Assembly: GCF_008107625.1 (NCBI RefSeq)
Contig: NZ_SDKK01000018.1
Location: 1 to 64,000 of the forward strand
Origin: Zoogloea oleivorans
GTDB taxonomy: Bacteria > Pseudomonadota > Gammaproteobacteria > Burkholderiales > Rhodocyclaceae
DNA: 64,000 bases
Direction of reading: 5' to 3'
In this document: positions 3,474 through 15,542 of the stretch, in pieces
Layout of the letters: the number at the start of each line of letters is the position of its first letter
Position numbering within the stretch: position 1 is the first letter of the stretch
Made by a program: the position numbers and the translations under genes
Notes under the pieces: generated by a model
Seen by the model: only the letters and a program-made list of their open reading frames with translations
What the model was told of the DNA's origin: nothing
Databases searched by the model: none

Positions 3474-5522
3474 CTATTTTGCAGCTTCGTGCACATTACC
3501 GATTCGATCGGGAAGTCGAACGTAGTCCACCAGTGCCTGGACTTCAGCTGACGGAGGAGGCGTAAGCAGGCTCACGATGGTAATAACGATGAAGCCGACA
3601 GGTACGCCAAACACCCCGCTCGAAATGGGGTGAATATCGAACCAGGCATCTCCCATGTTGCCGCCAAAGAACGGGTGCGTGCGCATGATGTAATAAAGCG
3701 TGATGCCGAGGCCGGCGATCATGCCGGCAATAGCCCCCCATTTGTTCGCACGCCGCCAGAAAATGCCCAGTACGAGGGCGGGGAAGAAGGCCGAAGCGGC
3801 AATCGAAAATGCCAACCCCACCATCAGGAGAATGCTGTCCGGTCGAAGGGATGCCACCCAGGCCGCCACCACTGCCACCACCAGCAACTGGGACTTGGTG
3901 ATCACCAGCCTCCGCTGGGTGGAAGCCTGGGGATTGATCATCTTGTAGTAGAGATCATGAGACAACGAGTGGGAGATGGTCAGCAACAGCCCATCTGCAG
4001 TGGACAGGGCAGCAGCCAGACCGCCAGCCGCGACAAGCCCTGAAACAACATACGGCAAGCCTGCGATCTCCGGGACCAGCAGCAGGATCACATCGCTGTT
4101 CAGGGTCAGTTCAGCCAACTGCAGGATGCCATCGCCATTGATGTCCTCGACCTTGACGAGCCCGACCCGCCCCCAAGATGTCACCCAGTGGGGCAAGGTG
4201 CCAATATTCGACCCTACGAGATTGCTGTACACCTCCCATTTGGCAAAAACGGCATAAGCCGGAGCAGTGACATAGAGGAGGAAAATGAAAAACAGCGACC
4301 AGAACACCGAACGCCGTGCCGAACTCACGCTCGGCGTCGTGTAGTAACGCACCAGGATATGCGGCAAAGCGGCGGTGCCGACCATCAGCACGAAAGTCAG
4401 GGCAATGAAATTGTTGCGCGCGCTGTTGCGGCCCGCCTGGTCAACCCCGGGATGAGGCTGCGCATGGGGCGCTGGATGAACCGTTCTGGCCAGGCTGTCC
4501 TGGCGGACACGCTCCCACTTGAGGCGGGCTTCGTCGGGAGTGCGGGGTAGATCCCGGAGGGTCCTCTCGGCAGCGGAGATATCCCGGGCCGGCGCCCCCT
4601 GGGTACGCAATTCGGTAACCCGCTGCACCTGCCCCATTCGCTCGGCCACCAGGGAGTCGGGAAGGTCGGAAATCTTTCGAGCGTACTCTTCAGCCCGATA
4701 GCGGTACTGGGCACGCACTTCGTTTTCCCGCGGCTCGGAGAAAAGCTCGAGTTCCTTGACACCAAGATCCTGGAGAACCTTGCCATACATCACCTGCGGC
4801 AGGGGAACCCCGGTCACCTTGTATGACAAGATCGTCACCGGCACCAGGTAGGCAATGATCAGAATCAGGTACTGGGCGACCTGGGTCCACGTGACAGCGC
4901 GCATCCCGCCAAGAAAGGAACAGACCAGAATTCCAGCCAGCCCGACAAAAACGCCAATCTCGAACTCGACACCGATGAAACGACTGGTGATCAGGCCCAC
5001 ACCGTAGATCTGCGCAACAACATAGACGAAGCTGGCCAACACCGCCGCAAACACACCAACCATCCGGGCAAAGTGCCCCTCGTAGCGGGCACCCAGAAAA
5101 TCCGGGATGGTGAACTGACCGAATTTACGCAGGAACGGTGCCAGCAGCAAAGCAACCAGAACATAGCCGCCGGTCCAGCCCGTCACGAAGGCGAGCCCTT
5201 CGAAACCCGAGTAATACAAGGTACCGGCGAGCCCGATGAAGGATGCGGCGCTCATCCAGTCCGCCGCAGTGGCCATGCCATTGAACAGCGCCGGCACTCG
5301 ACGCCCCGCCACGTAATACTCCGAGACGTCGGACGTCCGGCTCATGACGCCGATCGATGCGTAAATCGCGATGGTCGCAAACAGGAAAATCTGCCCGATC
5401 CAGCGCGCCGACAAACCAAACTGTTCGGCAACCGCAAGCAGACCGACGAGGCCGATGAAGCCGACGACGTAAAATGCGTAGTAGCGTCCGAGGCGGCGGA
5501 ACAGGGCGGGTGTCGTACTCAT
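3474..5522 (-). CDS. Sodium:solute symporter (SLC5, VC_2705/ActP-like), with EF-hand motif
   Basis: Inner-membrane Na+-coupled symporter of the SSS family, closest in layout to the acetate/organic-acid transporters partnered with a DUF4212 subunit. The core is recognisable from YYVAGRRVPALFNGMATAADWMS and the later GLAAALSTADGLLLTISHS. At 682 residues it is longer than ActP (about 550). The extra length is mainly a charged hydrophilic insert at about residues 250-370, rich in Arg and Glu and probably partly helical. A canonical EF-hand loop DINGDGILQLAE lies at residues 460-471 in another extramembrane loop. The DUF4212 gene is 12 bases upstream. Acetate as substrate is inferred from the linked acs and CrbS-like genes. 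Confidence 0.9.
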   Translation of the reverse strand: MSTTPALFRRLGRYYAFYVVGFIGLVGLLAVAEQFGLSARWIGQIFLFATIAIYASIGVMSRTSDVSEYYVAGRRVPALFNGMATAADWMSAASFIGLAGTLYYSGFEGLAFVTGWTGGYVLVALLLAPFLRKFGQFTIPDFLGARYEGHFARMVGVFAAVLASFVYVVAQIYGVGLITSRFIGVEFEIGVFVGLAGILVCSFLGGMRAVTWTQVAQYLILIIAYLVPVTILSYKVTGVPLPQVMYGKVLQDLGVKELELFSEPRENEVRAQYRYRAEEYARKISDLPDSLVAERMGQVQRVTELRTQGAPARDISAAERTLRDLPRTPDEARLKWERVRQDSLARTVHPAPHAQPHPGVDQAGRNSARNNFIALTFVLMVGTAALPHILVRYYTTPSVSSARRSVFWSLFFIFLLYVTAPAYAVFAKWEVYSNLVGSNIGTLPHWVTSWGRVGLVKVEDINGDGILQLAELTLNSDVILLLVPEIAGLPYVVSGLVAAGGLAAALSTADGLLLTISHSLSHDLYYKMINPQASTQRRLVITKSQLLVVAVVAAWVASLRPDSILLMVGLAFSIAASAFFPALVLGIFWRRANKWGAIAGMIAGLGITLYYIMRTHPFFGGNMGDAWFDIHPISSGVFGVPVGFIVITIVSLLTPPPSAEVQALVDYVRLPDRIGNVHEAAK

Positions 5523-5534
5523 GCAGGGCCGCTC

Positions 5535-5798
5535 TCAATCCTCGTTATACATTCCGTAGCGCCGTTCGATCCGGGTCATCCAGCGATCGTAGAGCCAGAC
5601 AATCAGCAGAAAAACAATCAGTGCACCCTGTGCCGCCATGTAGAAACCCACTGGCCAGCCAAGGAAAACGATCGTATTCATCTCCTCCGCAAACCAGCCA
5701 GGCAAGAAGCTCACGCCCCCCCAAAGCAGCAACAGCACAGCCGTCAGCCGCATCGTGGCGCGCCAGTAGGCCTGTCGTCTTGCGTCGGTATCGCTCAC
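5535..5798 (-). CDS. DUF4212 small subunit of the symporter
   Basis: 87-residue membrane protein with two predicted transmembrane segments (about residues 17-36 and 45-70). This is the family of small subunits encoded directly before VC_2705-type sodium:solute symporters. The GTG start has GGAGGGGCGAGA just upstream. It ends 12 bases before the symporter gene, so the two are almost certainly co-translated. The short charged C-terminus RIERRYGMYNED is expected to be cytoplasmic. How it assists transport is not known from the sequence. Confidence 0.88.
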   Translation of the reverse strand: MSDTDARRQAYWRATMRLTAVLLLLWGGVSFLPGWFAEEMNTIVFLGWPVGFYMAAQGALIVFLLIVWLYDRWMTRIERRYGMYNED

Positions 5799-5871: not shown

Positions 5872-7311
5872 CTACAATTGATAACGAATTTGGAGTTTTT
5901 GCTGAAGTTTCCGGGCCTGCCGGAAGGACTCCTTCAGGAAGGACCGCTCCAGCTCGCTGAGGTCATCCGGGGCAACCAGATTGGCCTGGCTGGCGGGGAC
6001 CCTCTGTCGGCGCAGCCTCAACTGCTGGATAAAATGCAAGGCCTCCACCAAGGAGTCGGTTTCCCTCGGCGCCCAGCGCAGCGCAGCGCCGGCGCCCCGC
6101 AAGCGCCCGGCGGTGGATGTTTCCTCGATCCCCAGAGCCAGTGCGTAGATGCGGGCCGCGTCGACAAAAGGCCGAACGCCATCGCGCTTGAGGTCGAGAA
6201 AACCTGTTTGCCGATCCACTACAAAATCACGGATACGTCCGAGCGGCGGACCGCTGCGCAACGCATTGGCAGCCATGAAACGAAGGAACAGCGGATTGTC
6301 ACCGGCTGCGGCAAGCAGCCACTCCTTGAGCGCGACGGCCAGACCCTGCTCGCCGGCAAGGGGCCGGAAGTCGAAAAAAATCGTTGCATTGAGCAGGTCA
6401 TCCGGACTGGCAGAACGCATCCACTCGATGAACTGCCCTCGCCACTCGACGAGAGACAGGCACCACTTCGGATTACCGGCCATCACCCCACCCTTGCACA
6501 GCGGAAAACCACACAGATCGAGCAGTTCATTGACCCGTCGGGCAAAAGGCAGGAAGCAGCTGCGCAAACCGTCGGCGTCCTGTTCGGATTCCGGTGCAAA
6601 GATGAGACCGTTATCCTGGTCTGTATCGAGGGTCTGTTCGAGACGCCCCTCGGAACCGAAGGCCAGCCAGCACCAGCGCACGAGAGGCAGATCGAATTCC
6701 GCCTCGGCGATGTCGATGGCCGCCAGCACGATCAGATCATTGAGGGTCGCAATCCACTCGCTGACGTACTCGGCACTGGCGCCCTGATCCACCAGAACAC
6801 CTGCGGCATGGCCCACCTTCCGGGCCGCATCGACCAGGGTGGGCACATCGAAAACGGCCTGGATCACCTCGACCAGATCCTCAGTGTGGAGACGCCTGGA
6901 CGCATAAAGGTCTCCTCGGGACACAACGCCCGCAAAACGCCCCGTTCCATCGACAACAACAAGGTGACGCAGGTCGTAACGAGCCATGGCGAGTCGCGCC
7001 TGATGGGGACTCGCCGTCAGCGGCAGGGAGACCACTCCGCCGGTCATTACCCCCGCCACCGCTTCGTCGAGATCGCCGGCGACCAAGGCGACACGCTCGA
7101 TGGCGTCGCGCTGGGTCAGGATGCCCAGGGGCCGCAGGCTGGCCGGATCGACCACCACAACCGCGCCAACACGCTCCGCACACATGCGCCCAAGCGCGTC
7201 GCGCACGCTCGTGTCGGGCGCCACATGCACCGGGGCGCGACGCAACAGCGCAGCAAGGCCGCCAGACGGCCTGGACTCGCCCTCCTCCAGCCCTGCCAAG
7301 ACGGTGCTCAT
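5872..7311 (-). CDS. CBS-pair / DUF294 nucleotidyltransferase-like protein
   Basis: Predicted cytoplasmic signalling protein. A tandem CBS domain pair fills about residues 22-140 and is expected to bind an adenosine nucleotide. It is followed by the DUF294 putative nucleotidyltransferase domain, whose polymerase-beta-like motif FGSEGRLEQTLDTDQD (residues 218-233) retains the GS and the DxD metal ligands. A C-terminal helical substrate-binding domain runs to residue 479. The N-terminal cyclic-nucleotide domain found in some relatives is absent. Genes of this class recur beside ActP-type symporters together with an exonuclease, and that neighbour pair is present here. The substrate is unknown; nucleotidylation of a protein partner is a reasonable inference only. 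Confidence 0.85.
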   Translation of the reverse strand: MSTVLAGLEEGESRPSGGLAALLRRAPVHVAPDTSVRDALGRMCAERVGAVVVVDPASLRPLGILTQRDAIERVALVAGDLDEAVAGVMTGGVVSLPLTASPHQARLAMARYDLRHLVVVDGTGRFAGVVSRGDLYASRRLHTEDLVEVIQAVFDVPTLVDAARKVGHAAGVLVDQGASAEYVSEWIATLNDLIVLAAIDIAEAEFDLPLVRWCWLAFGSEGRLEQTLDTDQDNGLIFAPESEQDADGLRSCFLPFARRVNELLDLCGFPLCKGGVMAGNPKWCLSLVEWRGQFIEWMRSASPDDLLNATIFFDFRPLAGEQGLAVALKEWLLAAAGDNPLFLRFMAANALRSGPPLGRIRDFVVDRQTGFLDLKRDGVRPFVDAARIYALALGIEETSTAGRLRGAGAALRWAPRETDSLVEALHFIQQLRLRRQRVPASQANLVAPDDLSELERSFLKESFRQARKLQQKLQIRYQL

Positions 7312-7323
7312 TACTCCCCTGAC

Positions 7324-9489
7324 CTAGTACTTGACCCGTGCGTAGTAGGTTTTTTCAGACGCACGGCGGGCTTCGCCGAGAGTCCGGATACCCATCTCCG
7401 CCAATAACGGAATCATGCGCAGGAAGACTTCACCCGTAACAATCGCATCACCGATCGCCGTATGACGCCCCATGATATTCACCCCCATCCGCTCGCAGAT
7501 CGCCTCCAGCCGGTGGGACTCCTGGGCCGGATGGATCACCGCCGAGAGCAGCAGGGTATCCAGTACCGGCTGGGCAAAGCGGATGCCGGAGCTTTCTTCC
7601 TTGAGTTGCAGAAAGCGCATGTCGAAGGCCGCGTTGTGGGCAACCAGCACCGTATCTTCGGCAAAAGCGTGGAAGGCGGGCAGAACCTTGCTCATGGGAG
7701 GCTGCCCCAGCAACATTTCCGGCGTAATGCCGTGAATTTTGGTGGAGGCCTCGGGCAACTCGCGGAGGGGATCGACCAGTTGATCGAAGGACTCCGACTT
7801 CAGAAGCTTCCCGTTCACGATCCGGGTTGCACCGATCTGGATGATCTCGTCCCCTTCGGACGGGTTGAGGCCGGTCGTTTCCGTATCGAAGACGGTAAAG
7901 GCCAGCTCGGCGAGCAGACGATCATCGAGCTCGCGGCTAACTTCGGTCTGCTTGAAAAGATCGAAATCGTAGTATTCCGGACGACTGTCCTGCTTCAGAT
8001 AGGTCGAAGCCTGGACCTGATCCTGTGGTGCAGCCGATGGCAACAGTAGACGGAAGAAAGCCCGATGCTGAGTTTTCTCGCGCTGCAGCCAGATTTCACC
8101 GTCGTGACGCGCGATAACGTCACGCACCGTCAGCGGCGAACTCTCACCGGCGAAAGTCATCGGCTCAAGCTCCCAGGCCATCACGGTTTCCGTGCTCATT
8201 GCCTGCCCCGACCAGATAAGATCCAGATGCACCAGGCGCCCAGCAGAAGTCAGCCGGAAACGCACCTCGCGCACCTCGAACTCGTCCGACAGGCGGCTGG
8301 CCAGATAACTGATCGCCTGCAGCAGGGAGAAGCTGTCCACCTTCACCCACACAGCAGGATCCACGTCCTCCAGCTTGGTGGGAAGACCCAGCTTTTTCTC
8401 GACACGCCGCTGGGCCGCGGCAATCAGATCTGCGCCGAGCATTTCATCAAGGGGCCAGCGCGTCTTAAGGGAATCGGCAAAGGCATTGGCGGTGTCGTCG
8501 AGACGAACGCTCATGCCCTGCACTTCATCACGAACCACCTTCAGGAAGCGATCCTTCAACTCTGCATCGAGATCCGGATACTCCAGCATCTCGGCAGCCG
8601 CCCGCAGGTTGGCCAGCGACGAGCGGCTCCCTTCGGTAAGGGTATGCAGCATCTGGTCGCGCTTGGTTTCAGCCTCGAAATTGCGCGTGATGTTGTCGAG
8701 CATCAGCACAAAGCCGGACACCACCGACTCCGCCTCGCCCTCGACGGCAGACAGCACCGGCGCCATCTGCACCCGCAGCAGCTGACCCGCGCGGGTCGTG
8801 GTCACGAAGTTGGCAACCGGCTGAGAGCTCTCGCGGCGAATCCGTTCCTGGATGCTTTCCAGCGCATGGACAATCAGGCTGCGCTCGAAAACCATGTAGA
8901 TCGAGCGCCCGAGGCCGATGATTTCCCCCCCGCCCGCCGCCGTCGGCGCATCGGACAGCGCCTTGAACTGCAGCCGCGCCCGGTTGTTGTAAAGCAGGAT
9001 GCGCCCATCCAGGTTGCACACGACGACGCTCTGGTTGAGCTCCGACATCAGCGCCGCCAGACGGTTACGCTCCTCCTCGACGGACAGGCGGGCTTCGCGG
9101 ACACGCAACTCCACGTCCTCCTGAAGACTGCGCCGCTGATCGGCAAGCAGATTGACCGACTCGGCAATCCGCTGCAGCTCGGGCGACCCTGTCGGCTTGA
9201 GACGCCGGGACGGATCGGTTCCGACGATCAGGCCCAACTCATCGGCCAGCAGCGCAGGCGCCGCCAGATTGGCCTGGACGAAGGACTTCATCATCACCGC
9301 CGCCATGCCGGCCCCCACCAGCCCGATCATGATCAGCAAACCGAGCCGCGGATTGAGAATGGGCTCCAGCACCTCCCGCTCATAGGGGCTTAGATCGCGC
9401 CACACGGTAATGCCGGCCGCCGCCAGCACCCCCACAACAAGAACGCAGGCAGAAACAATCGCCAGCGCCTGCCTTGACTTGAGGCTCAT
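7324..9489 (-). CDS. Membrane pseudo-histidine-kinase fused to DEDDh 3'-5' exonuclease
   Basis: 721-residue chimera. Two N-terminal transmembrane helices (about 8-28 and 48-66) are followed by a HAMP-like linker, a coiled segment, a PAS-like domain (about 145-270) and a histidine-kinase-like dimerisation and ATPase region (about 275-485). The C-terminal 190 residues form a DnaQ/PolC-type exonuclease with all DEDDh residues visible: D535 and E537 in FDTETTGLNP, D623 in HNAAFDMRFL, and H676 and D681 in GRHTAIGDAI. In the kinase part the H-box position reads LTEGSRSSLANLRAAAEML, with Glu where the phospho-accepting His should be, and no N-box Asn is evident. Kinase activity is therefore doubtful while nuclease activity looks intact. 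It sits between the DUF294 gene and a receiver gene. Confidence 0.85.
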   Translation of the reverse strand: MSLKSRQALAIVSACVLVVGVLAAAGITVWRDLSPYEREVLEPILNPRLGLLIMIGLVGAGMAAVMMKSFVQANLAAPALLADELGLIVGTDPSRRLKPTGSPELQRIAESVNLLADQRRSLQEDVELRVREARLSVEEERNRLAALMSELNQSVVVCNLDGRILLYNNRARLQFKALSDAPTAAGGGEIIGLGRSIYMVFERSLIVHALESIQERIRRESSQPVANFVTTTRAGQLLRVQMAPVLSAVEGEAESVVSGFVLMLDNITRNFEAETKRDQMLHTLTEGSRSSLANLRAAAEMLEYPDLDAELKDRFLKVVRDEVQGMSVRLDDTANAFADSLKTRWPLDEMLGADLIAAAQRRVEKKLGLPTKLEDVDPAVWVKVDSFSLLQAISYLASRLSDEFEVREVRFRLTSAGRLVHLDLIWSGQAMSTETVMAWELEPMTFAGESSPLTVRDVIARHDGEIWLQREKTQHRAFFRLLLPSAAPQDQVQASTYLKQDSRPEYYDFDLFKQTEVSRELDDRLLAELAFTVFDTETTGLNPSEGDEIIQIGATRIVNGKLLKSESFDQLVDPLRELPEASTKIHGITPEMLLGQPPMSKVLPAFHAFAEDTVLVAHNAAFDMRFLQLKEESSGIRFAQPVLDTLLLSAVIHPAQESHRLEAICERMGVNIMGRHTAIGDAIVTGEVFLRMIPLLAEMGIRTLGEARRASEKTYYARVKY

Positions 9490-9496
9490 TGGGAGC

Positions 9497-9871
9497 TCAC
9501 GCCGGAATTTCCAGCAGGGATTTCACCTTGGAAACCAGCTCCCTTGTCGAAAATGGCTTGGTCATGTAGGCATCCGCTCCCATCGCCAGGCCCTTGGTCA
9601 CTTCGGTTTCGCGACCCTTGGCCGTCAGCATCAGGATCCGCGTGCCCTGCAGAGCCGGCTCGGCGCGGATTTCCTGGCACACCTCGTAACCGTTCTTGCG
9701 CGGCATCATCACGTCGAGGAGCACCAGATCGGGCAACTCGCTGCGCACCAGGTCAAGCGCTTCCTGACCATCATTGGCGATGCACACAGTGAAGCCCTCG
9801 CGCTTCATCAAAAATTCCAGAGAAATGACGATGTTTTGCTCGTCATCAGCGATCAATATTTTTTTGGTCAT
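9497..9871 (-). CDS. Single-domain response regulator (CheY-like receiver)
   Basis: 124-residue receiver domain with the acidic pair D9/D10 (IADDEQN), phospho-acceptor D53 in LVLLDVMMP, T83 and K105 in TKPF, all in place. There is no DNA-binding or other output domain. That differs from the LuxR-type CrbR/ErdR regulators that partner CrbS-like kinases in Vibrio and Pseudomonas. A strong GAGGGAGGGG precedes the ATG. It is encoded between the CrbS-like kinase and the pseudokinase-exonuclease, so it may relay a phosphate or bind one of these partners. The partner is inferred from position. Confidence 0.9.
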   Translation of the reverse strand: MTKKILIADDEQNIVISLEFLMKREGFTVCIANDGQEALDLVRSELPDLVLLDVMMPRKNGYEVCQEIRAEPALQGTRILMLTAKGRETEVTKGLAMGADAYMTKPFSTRELVSKVKSLLEIPA

Positions 9872-9950: not shown

Positions 9951-12704
9951 TTATCCTGCCTCATCTTTCGTTTCTGTTGATTTGCCGCAAGGCATCAGAA
10001 ACGAGAAGGTCGCCCCCTCCCCGGCGACACTGTCCACCCACAACCTGCCGCCGTAATGCTCAACGATCTGGCGGCTGATCGGCAGGCCAAGCCCGGTGCC
10101 CTGGGGCTTGTCGGTCATCGTGTTCCCCCCCTGCCGGAATTTCTCGAAAACAATCTGCTGCTCGGTCGGCGTCAGACCCGGGCCGTTGTCACGCACATCG
10201 ACGCGCAGCCCCCCATCAGCCTCAGACAGCGTGACCAATACCCGCCCCTTGCCCCGGACAACAAACTTCACCGCGTTGGAGAGCAGGTTGAGCATCACTT
10301 GAACCAACCTGTCCCGGTCGGCCAGCAGGCTCGGCGCCTTACCCGGCAGGCTCATTTCCAGAGCCACGCCTTTATCCTTGAACAGCTGGCTGGTGGACGC
10401 TGCCGCCTGCTCGATGACCTCAACCAGACTCACCTCCTCGTTATCCCATTCCGCATGGCCCGACTCGATCTTGGCCATGTCCAGCACCTGGTTGACCAGG
10501 CGGGTCAAACGTTCGGTCTCACTGACGATAATGCCCAGAAAGCGCCTCCGGTCGGCCAGATCAATCCTCGGGTCTTCCAGCAGCATTTCCGAAAAGGCGC
10601 GGATCGAGGTCAGCGGCGTACGCAACTCGTGGGTCACCGAGGACATGAAATCATCCTTCAGGCGATCGAGCTCCTTGAGGCGCTCGTTGGCACTGCGCAA
10701 CTCGCGGGTGGCCGCTTCGAGCTCCTGCGATTTCTGCTCAAGACGTTTCGAATAGGCCCGCACCTGCGACGCCTCATCCAGAATGTTCAACACTTCGTCG
10801 AGCCCCAGCGGCTCCTCCTGCACCACGGACGCCACCATCACGCGCGCCGAGGCGCTGCCGATGGCGCCTGCCAGCGTTGTCTCGGCGAAATGCACCAGCC
10901 CAGCATCCGCCTGCAGCGCCTCGACACCTGCCACGCCGCGCGTCCGGGCGTACTCTGCAAAGGCGCTACGCGCACGCTCCCGGCCAATGAAACGACCGAT
11001 CAGCGGCAGCAGGTCGGCCACCCGGGCACTCCCGCGCCAGAACGCACCGCCTGTCGGCAGACTTTGCTTGAAGACATCGACAAACAGGGTCGCCTGGCCA
11101 GCCTCAACGGCATTCGGTCGGCGCATCAGCGACACCCACACATAGGCACCAAGATTGACCAGCAAGCTCCAGAACAGACTGTGAGCAATCTGATCCATCC
11201 CCTTGAGGCCGAACAACTCATGGGGACGTAGCAATTCCAGCCCGAACAGACCGTTCTGCAGGAAGTCGGCCGGCAACCAGCCAGACTTGGCGAAGGACGG
11301 CAGCAGCAAGGTGTAAAGCCACACGGCGAATCCCCCGGAGAGGCCCGCCAGCGCCCCACTCCGGGTGGCGCCACGCCAGTACATGCCACCGATCATCGCC
11401 GGTGCAAACTGGGCCACTGCGGCAAAACTGATCAAACCAATACTGACCAGCGCATGCGCCTCACCGGCCAGCCGGAAATACAGGTACCCCAACAGCAAAA
11501 TGAAAATGATCGCACTGCGCCGAATGCCCAGCAGCAGACCGGAGAGATCCTCCTCCCCCTGCAGGGCCAGCCAGCGGTAGCGCAACAACAAGGGCATCAC
11601 CAAGTCATTGCAGACCATCGTGGACAGGGCGATGGTCTCGACGATCACCATCCCGGTGGCTGCCGACAAGCCGCCGATAAACACCAGTAAAGCCAGCCAG
11701 CCGTGTCCGTAGGCCATCGGCAGGGTCAGCACGAAGGTATCCGCATCCACATCCTGCCCGGCGAAATGCATCAAGCCCCCCAACGCGATCGGCAGGACGA
11801 AGATGTTGATCAGCAAGAGGTACAAGGGAAACAGCCAGATCGCCCGGCGCAGATGGTTCTCATTGACGTTCTCGACCACTGCCACCTGAAACTGGCGCGG
11901 CAGGAACATCACCGCCAGCATCGACAGCAGGGTCAGCGCAAACCAGTTGCCATAGCCGTTGCCACCGGCCCCCATCGTCATCAAGGCTTGCAGGTTCGGA
12001 TCCTGGGCGGCCCGGGAAAACAGATCACCGAAACCATCGAAAATACCGAAGGTGACGTAGATGCCGACCCCCATGAAAATCAGCAGCTTGACCAGTGACT
12101 CGAAGGCGACCGCCGCCACCATGCCCTCATGGCGCTCCGTGGCGTCGAGATGCCGGGTACCGAAGAGAATCGTGAAGGCCGCCATGATCAGCGCGATGTA
12201 GAGCGTCGTGTCGGCCAGCCACGGCACCGTGCCAGCCTTGGCAGGCATGACGATCGCCGGGTAGCTGGTGAGGATCGTAAAGCTGTTCGAGACAGCCTTG
12301 AGCTGCAGCGCGATGTAGGGAATCACGCCCAGCACGGCGATCACAGTAACCAGGCCGCCCAGCAGATGGCTCTTGCCATAGCGGGAGGCGACAAAGTCGG
12401 CGATGGAAGTAATCCGGTTGGTCTTGCCGATGCGAACCATTTTCAGCATCACGAACCACCACAGGGCGACGACCAGTGTCGGCCCGAGGAAAATCGGCGC
12501 AAAACCAAGCCCCGACGAGGCCGCTCGCCCGACGCTCCCGTAATAAGTCCAGGTAGTGCAATACACCGCCAGCGACAGGGCGTAGATGGTTGGGTTGGCA
12601 ATGATCGAGCGACCAGCGTCGGCCCGCTTGTCACCGACATACGCCACCGCGAAGAGCAGCGCGAGATACAGAAAGGAAACCACGACGATGGTGGAGCCAG
12701 TCAC
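9951..12704 (-). CDS. crbS: CrbS/CbrA-like sensor histidine kinase with SLC5 symporter domain
   Basis: Very large hybrid of transporter and sensor. A sodium:solute symporter-like domain with about 13 membrane helices fills residues 1-530, followed by a linker where CbrA/CrbS proteins carry the STAC domain, a coiled coil, and a complete kinase core. The H-box SSVTHELRTPLTSIRAFSEM has its phospho-accepting His near residue 692. The N-box LNLLSNAVKF, DNGPGL and GTGLGLPIS are also present. The GTG at 12704 is preferred over a start 11 codons upstream because GGAGGTG lies seven bases before it and the product then starts at the first helix. CrbS-family kinases control acetyl-CoA synthetase and acetate scavenging; acs lies just upstream. 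Confidence 0.88.
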   Translation of the reverse strand: MTGSTIVVVSFLYLALLFAVAYVGDKRADAGRSIIANPTIYALSLAVYCTTWTYYGSVGRAASSGLGFAPIFLGPTLVVALWWFVMLKMVRIGKTNRITSIADFVASRYGKSHLLGGLVTVIAVLGVIPYIALQLKAVSNSFTILTSYPAIVMPAKAGTVPWLADTTLYIALIMAAFTILFGTRHLDATERHEGMVAAVAFESLVKLLIFMGVGIYVTFGIFDGFGDLFSRAAQDPNLQALMTMGAGGNGYGNWFALTLLSMLAVMFLPRQFQVAVVENVNENHLRRAIWLFPLYLLLINIFVLPIALGGLMHFAGQDVDADTFVLTLPMAYGHGWLALLVFIGGLSAATGMVIVETIALSTMVCNDLVMPLLLRYRWLALQGEEDLSGLLLGIRRSAIIFILLLGYLYFRLAGEAHALVSIGLISFAAVAQFAPAMIGGMYWRGATRSGALAGLSGGFAVWLYTLLLPSFAKSGWLPADFLQNGLFGLELLRPHELFGLKGMDQIAHSLFWSLLVNLGAYVWVSLMRRPNAVEAGQATLFVDVFKQSLPTGGAFWRGSARVADLLPLIGRFIGRERARSAFAEYARTRGVAGVEALQADAGLVHFAETTLAGAIGSASARVMVASVVQEEPLGLDEVLNILDEASQVRAYSKRLEQKSQELEAATRELRSANERLKELDRLKDDFMSSVTHELRTPLTSIRAFSEMLLEDPRIDLADRRRFLGIIVSETERLTRLVNQVLDMAKIESGHAEWDNEEVSLVEVIEQAAASTSQLFKDKGVALEMSLPGKAPSLLADRDRLVQVMLNLLSNAVKFVVRGKGRVLVTLSEADGGLRVDVRDNGPGLTPTEQQIVFEKFRQGGNTMTDKPQGTGLGLPISRQIVEHYGGRLWVDSVAGEGATFSFLMPCGKSTETKDEAG

Positions 12705-12750
12705 AGTCCACCTCCGCGACGCACGGAAAACAACCACATGGCGACCGGCC

Positions 12751-12942: not shown

Positions 12943-13103
12943 CTCCCCTCCTCGACACAGCTTTTTTTGTTTGTTCGGAACTTATAAACCGAAAAACGGG
13001 GCTTGGCGAGTGCCACGAGGGCAATTTGCGCAGCTTCCGCCAAGCCCTTGATACACAACACCACGGCAAGACCATCGTCGTATCCTCGACACAAACGACA
13101 GAC

Positions 13104-13273: not shown

Positions 13274-15232
13274 TTACTTGAGCTGTTCCAGGATGCCCGG
13301 GTTTTCCAGCGTCGAGGTGTCCTGGGTGATTTCCTCGCCCTTGGCCAGCTGACGGAGCAGACGGCGCATGATCTTGCCGGAACGGGTCTTCGGCAGGTTT
13401 TCACCGAAACGAATGTCCTTCGGCTTGGCGATCGGGCCGATTTCCTGACCAACCCAGTTCTGCAGTTCCTTGATCATCGCAGTAGCTGCATCGCCGGTCG
13501 GACGGGCGCCCTTCAGCACCACGAAGGCCACGATGGCTTCACCGGTCAGATCATCCGGACGGCCAACCACAGCCGCTTCGGCAACCTTCTCGTGGGCAAC
13601 CAGCGCGGATTCGATTTCCATCGTTCCCATGCGGTGACCGGAAACGTTCAGCACGTCGTCGATACGGCCGGTGATGGTGAAGTAGCCGGTGTCCTTGTCG
13701 CGGATCGCGCCGTCGCCAGCCAGGTACAGCTTGCCCTGGAAGTCGGCCGGGTAGTAGGACTTCACGAAACGGTCCGGGTCACCCCAGATGTTGCGGATCA
13801 TCGACGGCCACGGACGCTTCACGACCAGGATACCGCCCTGACCCCAAGGCACTTCGGTGCCGGTTTCGTCGACCACCGCAGCCATGATGCCCGGGAAGGC
13901 CAGAGTGCAGGAGCCGGGAATCAGCGGGGTGGCACCGGGCAGCGGGGTGATCATGTGGCCGCCGGTTTCGGTCTGCCAGAAGGTATCGACGATCGGGCAG
14001 CGGCTGCCGCCGACGTTCTCGTAGTACCACTCCCAAGCTGCCGGGTTGATCGGCTCGCCCACGGAACCGAGGATGCGCAGCGAGGACAGATCGTATTTCT
14101 TCGGATGTACAGCCGGGGTGTTGTCCGCAGCCTTGATCAGCGAACGAATCGCGGTCGGCGCGGTGTAGAACACGGTGACCTTGTGATCCTGGATCATCTT
14201 CCAGAAACGACCGGCGTCCGGGTAGGTCGGCACGCCTTCGAACACGATTTCGGTCGCGCCGCAGGCCAGCGGGCCGTAGGTAATGTAGGTGTGACCGGTA
14301 ACCCAACCGATGTCAGCCGTGCACCAGAAGACGTCGTCCGGCTTGATGTCGAACGTGTACTTCATGGTCAGGATGGCATGCAGCAGGTAGCCGCCGGTGG
14401 AGTGCTGAACCCCCTTCGGCTTGCCGGTGGAGCCCGACGTGTAGAGCAGGAACAGGGGATGTTCGGCTTCGACCCATTCCGGTTCGCAAACATCGGACTG
14501 GGTGGCGATCAGATCGTCAGCCCAAACGTCGCGGCCGGCAACCATGGCGGTTTCGCCACCGGTGCGCTTCACGACGATCACGTTCTTGATGGTGGGGCAG
14601 CCGCTGGCCAGCGCTTCGTCGGCGATGGACTTGAGGGGCAGAGCCTTGCCGCCGCGGTTCTGACCGTCGGAGGTAATCAGGGCCACTGCGCCAGCATCGT
14701 TGATGCGGTCAGACAGGGACTGGGCCGAAAAACCGCCGAAGACGATGGAGTGGGTTGCGCCGATACGGGCACATGCCTGCATGGCCACTACACCTTCGAT
14801 GGACATCGGCAAATAGATGACGACGCGGTCACCCTTTTTGACGCCGACGCTGCGCAGGCCGTTGGCGAACTTGCTGACACGGCTGAGCAGGTCACTGTAG
14901 GTAACCTTGGCGACATCGCCCTTGTCGCCTTCAAAGATCAGCGCAACCTTGTCGCCCAGACCCTTTTGGACCTGACGATCAAGGCAGTTGTAAGAAACGT
15001 TCAGCTTGCCGTCGGCAAACCATTTGAAGAAAGGCGCATTGCTTTCATCAAGAACCTCGGTAAACGGGGTCTGCCAGTCGATCAGTTCCTTGGCCCGCTT
15101 GCCCCAGAAACCTTCGTAATCCTGTTCAGCCTCCGCACACAAGGCCTTGTACGCTTCCATGCCCGACACGGCAGCGTTTTTTACCACCTCTTCAGACGGA
15201 TAGTAGAAATTCTGGGTGGTTTCGCTCGTCAT
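13274..15232 (-). CDS. acs: Acetyl-CoA synthetase (AMP-forming)
   Basis: Converts acetate, ATP and CoA to acetyl-CoA, AMP and pyrophosphate in the cytoplasm. The 652-residue product has family length. The adenylate-forming signature [18 protein letters not shown] is near residue 260. The C-terminal lid carries [14 protein letters not shown], whose Lys in SGK is the residue acetylated by Pat-type enzymes. The ATG at 15232 is chosen over the GTG at 15241 because GGAGAGG is eight bases before the ATG and would touch the GTG. Proximity to the CrbS-like kinase and symporter fits the acetate-switch regulon, in which acs is the main target. Confidence 0.97.
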
Positions 15233-15542
15233 TTTTTTCACCTCTCCTCGTGTTTTGAGTGTGCAACGTTGATAGCTTTGAAACCTTGCTGGCGGGGGTC
15301 ACGACCGTTTGGCAGTGCGTTCACCCTGTTGTGTTTTTCTTGGTGAACCGATCTTGGATCCGCCGCGTATTAAAGGCGATCAATCTTACACATGACTTAC
15401 ACCTGACAGCACCACTTCCCATACCGGGCAGTCGTTCTGTCCACCTGAAATCACCTGAAAAAGGTCACAGAAAAAACGAAACACCACCATAAAATTTTTT
15501 TGGCATAAAATAAAATGACAAAAGCACAAACCCGAAAACAAG
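15233..15542. promoter_or_regulatory. Divergent acs / msh intergenic region with phased CACCTGA repeats
   Basis: This 310-base region separates the divergent acs and msh genes and must hold both promoters. CCACCTGAAA and TCACCTGAAA stand head to tail with a 10-bp period (15441-15460), and a third CACCTGA lies at 15400-15406. They resemble a phased regulator site about 80-140 bases before mshL. I cannot assign clear -35/-10 hexamers for either gene; the last 60 bases before mshL are AT-rich. Confidence 0.5.

Follow-up and report, generated by a model that had tools for sequence, protein, structure and literature searches.

A pseudo-histidine kinase fused to a DEDDh exonuclease in Zoogloea oleivorans, and its possible control by a receiver-only response regulator

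The window analysed here is a 64-kb stretch of Zoogloea oleivorans (positions 1 to 64,000 of contig NZ_SDKK01000018.1, assembly GCF_008107625.1). One of its genes encodes a membrane-anchored pseudo-histidine kinase that continues into a DEDDh exonuclease. The question raised by this locus is what a dead kinase core may do in front of a nuclease. The answer to which we give somewhat better than even chances is that a two-component system has been rewired, with this protein as its effector: a receiver is read by the dead kinase core, the nuclease is the output, and a nucleotidyltransferase is the partner. The first-pass annotation had described a pseudo-histidine kinase with a complete DEDDh exonuclease in an acetate-linked operon. 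Its anatomy is right: the 721-residue gene is intact, the kinase motifs are dead, and the five nuclease residues are in place. The mechanism needs the receiver and the transferase, and a probable receiver-reading pseudo-kinase with a nuclease output is the new element. The gene and its parts are as follows.

7324..9489, minus strand: fusion gene, membrane-anchored pseudo-histidine kinase and DEDDh exonuclease, 721 amino acids, ATG start, no internal stop
9406..9465, minus strand: membrane helix 1, residues about 9-28 (hydropathy)
9283..9345, minus strand: membrane helix 2, residues about 49-69 (hydropathy)
8689..9042, minus strand: PAS-like domain, residues about 150-267 (PAS_4, weak in the window protein)
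8467..8679, minus strand: helical hairpin like the dimerization and histidine phosphotransfer (DHp) domain, residues 271-341 (AlphaFold2 models, Foldseek/VIA)
8632..8634, minus strand: E286, at the place of the phospho-acceptor His (alignments)
8035..8448, minus strand: Bergerat-like fold, the catalytic and ATP-binding (CA) part, without N, G1, F and G2 motifs, residues 348-485
7954..7986, minus strand: conserved linker motif SRPEYYDFDLF, residues 502-512 (alignment)
7396..7899, minus strand: DEDDh exonuclease domain, residues 531-698, with D535, E537, D623, H676 and D681 (RNase_T)

The kinase-like core proposed at first is borne out by structure prediction. Residues 268-488 fall on a DHp-CA fold according to AlphaFold2 models and Foldseek/VIA, with a predicted local distance difference test score (pLDDT) of 54-79 in the DHp-like part. 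In its own genome, the pseudo-kinase profile matched beyond itself only the kinase of the same operon (E 1.9e-12), to which the core is thus related; the next of the 52 candidate stretches stood at 0.11. A functional histidine kinase elsewhere in the protein was looked for, and no Pfam match to HisKA or HATPase_c was found anywhere in the window fusion at E ≤ 1. HisKA was seen in 5 of 39 scanned members, with a best E of 0.0043.

The catalytic motifs are gone. The H-box place reads LTEGSRSSLAN in the fusion and LTHELRTPLTS in the neighbouring kinase; the N-box reads LLQAISYLASRL, without the Asn, as had been stated; and the place of GLGL reads SPLT. Of 125 rows, 98 are distinct, and in these the residues at the key positions were counted. 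Position 286 is E in 91 rows, D in 4, Q in 2 and a gap in 1, the N-box Asn place is R in 96 and K in 2, and the G1 Asp place is W in 97 and C in 1. His stands at position 286 in none of these rows, nor in any row of an alignment of 152 distinct genes. The Glu reported at the H-box is confirmed in the window protein, but an acidic residue is not general among the relatives, since distant rows also carry T, R, V, L, N, Q, M, P or A. For this reason, the idea of E286 as a general phospho-mimic was dropped. The neighbouring kinase has its His in 79 of the 80 loci carrying both kinase and fusion, and its consensus keeps DNGPG and GTGLGL, whereas the fusion has neither these nor the His.

A phosphotransferase role of the dead core has also to be considered. 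Like ChpT or Spo0B, it might take a phosphoryl group from the receiver, here on H282. This residue sits one helical turn ahead of the usual site, on the same helix, and 71 of the 98 rows have His there; Foldseek also matched the ChpT structures 4fpp and 4fmt. However, the same place is Q in 20 rows, N, E or L in 6 and a gap in 1, and many distant rows lack the His. No second response regulator was found as a constant neighbour in searches that used one receiver query only. Such a role seems quite improbable.

The nuclease half carries all five of the residues named by the first-pass annotation. RNase_T (PF00929) matches residues 533-689 with an E of 1.2e-34 and 120.7 bits (cut-off 24). D535 and E537 were found in 98 of 98 rows, and D623, H676 and D681 in 96, with 2 gaps. 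The linker before the domain is strongly conserved, with R503, P504, E505 and Y507-F512 invariant in 39 rows. The nearest solved structures are of the PolC/DnaQ type, the PolC exonuclease 2p1j_A (9.3e-34) and 9qpc (9.6e-24). It had also been claimed that this exonuclease class is known as a separate gene beside ActP-type symporters. Such a gene exists (PP_0353, as reported in PMC9927547), but it does not appear to be the same gene as the fused domain. Against a profile of the free type, the window fusion scores 114 bits and the free type at least 171 bits, with a score gap from 171 to 132; the fused domain is 25-36% identical to the free PP_0353-type exonuclease. Because of the scores and the PolC/DnaQ-type neighbours, the fused exonuclease is probably not simply the product of the separate gene, and looks like a functional replacement. 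The free exonucleases are themselves of two kinds: the motif II Asp is changed to Glu in most rows, and the Asp is kept in L186, L192, L193 and L198.

The fusion is real, widespread and conserved in many Proteobacteria. Broken or unfused homologues were looked for, and the sensor and the exonuclease share one frame in 95 of 98 stretches (L031-L128), cultured named strains included; L036, counted among the 95, has its first part in another frame. Of the other three, L048 is an unrelated stretch of 1 kb, L037 is a second copy that has decayed, and in L098 the contig breaks off within the gene. The ratio of nonsynonymous to synonymous substitution rates (dN/dS) against three same-genus relatives was 0.028-0.047 for the pseudo-kinase, 0.016-0.031 for the exonuclease and higher, 0.061-0.167, for the membrane part; since several dS values are above 1, these ratios are only approximate. 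Both halves are maintained for some function, and the gene is under purifying selection. A chimera without function or an assembly artefact might be suspected from G006:C8, where a second copy has decayed, and from G014, where the copy is spread over two frames. However, this conservation of one frame, together with a dN/dS of 0.016-0.047 in two folded domains of catalytic type, already refutes such an origin, which we regard as hardly credible. The decayed copy (L037, G006:C8:33000-39923) comprises fusion, transferase and symporter with several stops, and an intact copy lies elsewhere in that genome. The two-frame copy (L022/L036, G014:C121) is split near residue 128, by an assembly error or a real break.

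The fusion was read from match rows in 34 of 60 relatives (G000-G023, G025-G032, G034 and G045), two of them with the gene in two pieces (G001 at contig ends, G014 in separate frames). Among named genomes, at least 568 stretches were confirmed by the sensor pattern. The best 80 were kept; their genera include Zoogloea, Azoarcus, Aromatoleum, Thauera, Rhodoferax, Polaromonas and Hydrogenophaga, and the closest of these loci are from Zoogloea, with a metagenome-assembled genome of Z. oleivorans at 95%. The sensor profile matched in 21 of 369 genomes of the class sample, three with a decayed exonuclease. In the phylum sample, the pseudo-kinase profile matched in 124 of 398 genomes; most of the weaker matches look like ordinary kinases by frame length and coverage, and 40 genomes besides the own one matched at E < 1e-20. 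All 20 phylum-sample loci fetched (own included) were fused, as were then 12 and 8 more. Eighteen plasmid records carry the fusion (Paracoccus 14, Cupriavidus 2, Aestuarium 1, Ciceribacter 1). No description of it was found in the titles and abstract openings of the open-licence literature, among the matches listed.

What might control this nuclease is suggested by the two genes directly upstream.

9497..9871, minus strand: receiver-only response regulator, 124 amino acids (Response_reg, 3.5e-29)
9951..12737, minus strand: sensor histidine kinase with intact HisKA (His703) and HATPase_c (family matches)

Only 7 bases separate the receiver stop from the fusion start, and the codon of the receiver D53 was read at 9713-9715. 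This order is nearly constant. Upstream sequence of 700 bases or more is available for 121 of 130 distinct fusion genes, and 115 of these directly follow a receiver-only gene on the same strand, which has at most 16 residues beyond the receiver match. The other six are L034 (a weak, 38% receiver), L132, L133, L135, L138 and L148. The phosphorylation residues are kept, with D53 in 115 of 115 relatives. No DNA-binding response regulator was found as the locus partner, which is receiver-only in 115 of 115 loci.

The DHp hairpin and the receiver are lost together. Of 152 distinct fusion genes, 147 could be judged, having a receiver or at least 500 bases upstream; L039, L100, L107 and L260, with long receiver frames, were counted as receiver-bearing, and L267 as DHp-lost. 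The hairpin is lost in four genes of two lineages: it is missing in L268 and L269, about one third is missing in L148, and it is unrecognisable in any frame in L267. In the stretches of all four, no receiver-only gene was found; in L267, a 34% receiver forms part of a hybrid kinase. The receiver is present in 139 of the 143 DHp-bearing genes. Both states occur within the genus g386. G440, G446, G449 and G468 have the DHp and a 62-66% receiver, and three of the four have the kinase at E ≤ 1e-60. In G476, G559 and G574 the DHp can no longer be recognised, but PAS, CA, nuclease and transferase are retained. In these three, neither a close receiver (best 41-43% in long frames; at most 150 candidates scored per genome) nor the kinase at E ≤ 1e-60 was found. 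G384 is the second lineage with DHp loss. Because loss of the DHp goes with loss of the receiver, it is probable that the core, like DivL, reads the receiver and that it gates the nuclease, with the hairpin at residues 271-341 as the probable docking part.

The membrane part leads to a similar view. The two membrane helices claimed at first agree with hydrophobic segments at about 9-28 and 49-69, and the loop between them has only about 20 residues by hydropathy. The PAS-like domain fared unevenly: PAS_4 reaches 15.3 bits in the window protein against a cut-off of 23.1, but was seen at E ≤ 0.05 in 26 of 39 scanned members, and PAS_9 exceeds its cut-off in the Paracoccus denitrificans relative. 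The HAMP-like linker stays weak, with a match in 1 of 39 members (E 0.017). Because of the short loop, the linkage to kinase and receiver, and the joint loss of DHp and receiver, the likelier input of the fusion is the phosphorylation state of the receiver. On the same grounds, the earlier suggestion of a sensor that drives degradation by itself is not sustained.

The other partner is the gene directly downstream.

5872..7311, minus strand: CBS-DUF294-DUF294_C putative nucleotidyltransferase (family match and co-occurrence)

The transferase was found in 34 of 34 fusion-bearing relatives, and also in 12 of the 26 relatives without the fusion. It was found in 46 of 49 further fusion genomes (some matches partial), and in those 46 the fused nuclease keeps its catalytic residues. 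The three misses (G110, G249 and G354) belong to one genus and therefore represent one evolutionary event, not three; the C-terminal domain of their fusion has lost its catalytic residues. All 80 tested genomes with an intact fused nuclease have the transferase (34 relatives and 46 others, with G001 and G014 counted though in two pieces). In that genus, L136 (G249), L137 (G354) and L139 (G110) keep the receiver and the pseudo-kinase, the exonuclease is decayed, and the CBS-DUF294 gene was not found in these genomes. L136 adjoins an open reading frame with a weak IMS_C match and L139 one with a PHP domain; these neighbours resemble what we take to be an imuB/dnaE2-type mutagenesis cassette, where the pair of receiver and pseudo-kinase may have been repurposed.

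The transferase also often has a nuclease neighbour where the fusion is absent. In 40 regions around CBS-DUF294 genes, a free DEDDh-class exonuclease adjoins in 29 (27 of which were aligned), none in 8, and the fusion in 3. Free exonucleases were found at no fewer than 58 places of the class sample, among the matches listed. The transferase is present in 66 of 229 class-sample genomes. Among these, a free exonuclease adjoins in 48 of 55 genomes without the fusion versus 1 of 11 with it, among the matches listed (Fisher 9e-7, uncorrected for kinship).

These relationships are consistent with the following mechanism. The upstream kinase, perhaps SLC5-type by relationship, would phosphorylate the receiver-only protein, whose gene directly precedes the fusion. 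This receiver, probably when phosphorylated, would dock on the DHp part of the dead core. Docking may change the PAS/DHp unit, so that the fused exonuclease at the membrane is switched on or off. Within the acetate/monocarboxylate uptake module that they share, the nuclease would work together with the CBS-DUF294 nucleotidyltransferase, and may replace the free exonuclease that other bacteria keep beside the transferase. Its most likely job would be the removal of nucleotides added by the transferase to a protein or RNA target.

Several observations weigh against this mechanism. The receiver lies on the opposite strand in L135 and L260. The locus lacks a receiver for four DHp-bearing genes, namely those of G677 and G273 and one copy each in G127 and G258; in G127 and G258 it sits by the other fusion copy, and in G677 and G273 no close receiver was found anywhere in the genome (best 36% and 35%). 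Among the genomes of genus g386 without DHp, G559 and G574 are only 74-75% complete and G476 is 97% complete. The CA part is retained where DHp and receiver are lost, and must therefore have a further role of its own apart from receiver reading. Kinase and pseudo-kinase showed no own-pair excess in DHp helix 1: their alpha-1 identity is 0.288 within the same locus and 0.292 across loci, so there is no co-evolution signal. The contrast between free and fused exonucleases is confined to transferase-bearing genomes and is uncorrected for kinship. Exclusion over the whole class sample of 369 genomes was rejected, both types occurring together in 3 genomes versus 3.7 expected, among the matches listed. 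Finally, no phenotype was reported after deletion of the transferase in P. putida (PP_0354, PMC9927547) or in P. fluorescens (Pflu5625, PMC5715377).

Some of these points would suit a direct sensor-nuclease, close to the view of the first-pass annotation, in which the membrane and PAS part senses a ligand or the symporter and drives the nuclease, and the receiver has no role. The PAS-like domain and both membrane helices are retained. G677 and G273 have the DHp and no close receiver. G476, G559 and G574 keep PAS, CA and nuclease without DHp or receiver, so another input must suffice in that lineage. However, the receiver-only gene is adjacent in 115 of 121 loci, and DHp loss occurs only where this gene was not found, which a plain PAS-to-enzyme linker does not predict. 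A direct sensor seems unlikely.

The step from a gated nuclease to its substrate is more doubtful. In the specific version, the phosphorylated receiver on the dead kinase core would gate a DEDDh eraser, which strips nucleotides written by the CBS-DUF294 transferase on a protein or RNA of the uptake module; we put this forward tentatively, as a reading with rather low odds. Publications of Hamdan (2002) and Park (2008) are said, by their titles, to bear on DEDDh hydrolysis of the p-nitrophenyl ester of TMP (pNP-TMP), an aryl 5'-nucleotide ester chemically like tyrosyl-NMP. DEDDh enzymes are reported to hydrolyse this ester (PMC6768110), so the chemistry needed for an eraser exists. The transferase is predicted to nucleotidylate proteins (PMC5715377). 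Nothing useful was found in the literature as a precedent for the removal of oligo-AMP from protein. Deletion of PP_0353 slows growth on pyruvate (PMC9927547), whereas the transferase mutants have no reported phenotype, and this is a poor fit to a simple pair of writer and eraser.

RNA is the other candidate substrate. DEDDh enzymes degrade RNA, and the pseudo-kinase might be only a membrane anchor and dimerizer for an RNase that trims acetate or pyruvate transcripts, with the receiver also acting elsewhere. The published speculation that PP_0353 degrades mRNA of tricarboxylic acid cycle, glyoxylate or transporter genes would agree with this (PMC9927547). However, the near-constant order of receiver and fusion, the joint loss of DHp and receiver, and the tie to the transferase would be left unexplained, and we consider this view improbable.

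The remaining genes of the run point to acetate or monocarboxylate uptake.

5535..5798, minus strand: symporter small subunit (DUF4212, TIGR03647; family match)
3474..5522, minus strand: VC_2705-family sodium/solute symporter (TIGR03648, 779 bits)
13274..15241, minus strand: acetyl-CoA synthetase-like gene, upstream of the kinase (name proposed from its sequence)

The run thus reads histidine kinase, receiver, fusion (third), CBS-DUF294 transferase, small subunit and VC_2705-family symporter. The gene at 13274..15241 is presumably acetyl-CoA synthetase-like, and its relatives sit near the kinase in many fusion loci. Residues 16-483 of the window kinase match the solved chain 10ed_A (5.1e-73), which is named histidine kinase. 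SSF matched the Paracoccus relative of the kinase at 4.2e-4, below cut-off, and gave no hit in the window kinase. ACTU-type CrbR boxes gave 5 matches in the window at up to 2 mismatches versus 7.7 expected and are therefore uninformative. A site at 13067-13083, between the acs-like gene and the kinase, resembles the CrbR box of P. fluorescens acs; matches of this kind are not above chance. The same genome has a second, longer CBS-DUF294 gene (L184, G000:C19:39747-41153, a 643-codon frame), with no exonuclease or symporter hit within the fetched 10 kb.

If the proposed mechanism is true, a two-component signal would end in a nuclease and switch an enzyme directly instead of genes. The dead kinase would be a receiver-reading domain, a design exemplified, as far as known, by DivL. 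The exonuclease and CBS-DUF294 genes beside acetate symporters, so far unexplained, would gain a testable joint role. In Paracoccus denitrificans PD1222, the transferase, a small gene, the kinase, the receiver and the fusion lie in this order in one run, which makes this laboratory strain suitable for a test of the idea. If the eraser reading is also true, reversible nucleotidylation might have a second type of cycle in addition to that of GlnD/GlnE, in which a fold known from DNA proofreading does the erasing.

Parts of this design have counterparts in known systems. With GlnD and GlnE, the modification is taken off by an HD domain or by the enzyme that put it on; in the fusion system, a DEDDh exonuclease would do so. 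The transferases are alike in that DUF294_C is listed with the GlnD/GlnE C-terminal domains (PMC3710099). In CrbS/CrbR (MxtR/ErdR) of Pseudomonas and Vibrio, a kinase of SLC5 type, to which the window kinase may also belong, is connected with acs, actP, the CBS-nucleotidyltransferase and the exonuclease gene (PMC9927547, PMC5715377). However, CrbR/ErdR binds promoters and activates transcription, whereas the window receiver has no output domain and adjoins the fusion. The free PP_0353-type exonuclease is a DEDDh-class enzyme of the same module, but it is a separate protein, falls in another profile score class, and often has Glu for the motif II Asp. The PolC/DnaQ proofreading exonucleases are the closest solved relatives of the fused domain, which differs in being joined to a membrane pseudo-kinase; no polymerase gene was found in the operon as read. 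In EpsW-EpsZ of Myxococcus, a phosphorylated single-domain regulator also switches a membrane enzyme after translation, although that enzyme is unrelated and the abstract names no kinase-derived docking domain (PMC12802240). The closest parallel in design may be DivL of Caulobacter, and the likeness is a fold match only. We know of no enzyme domain after the core of DivL. Like the fusion, DivL has a histidine kinase fold with the His replaced, a PAS part before it, and a phosphorylated single-domain regulator (DivK) as partner, so that the signal passes from receiver to kinase fold; its kinase domains are reported to serve as an input sensor that is specific for the phosphorylated response regulator (PMC4211667). 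The target of DivL is another kinase, CckA, whereas the core of the fusion, in which the ATP motifs are also gone, ends in an exonuclease.

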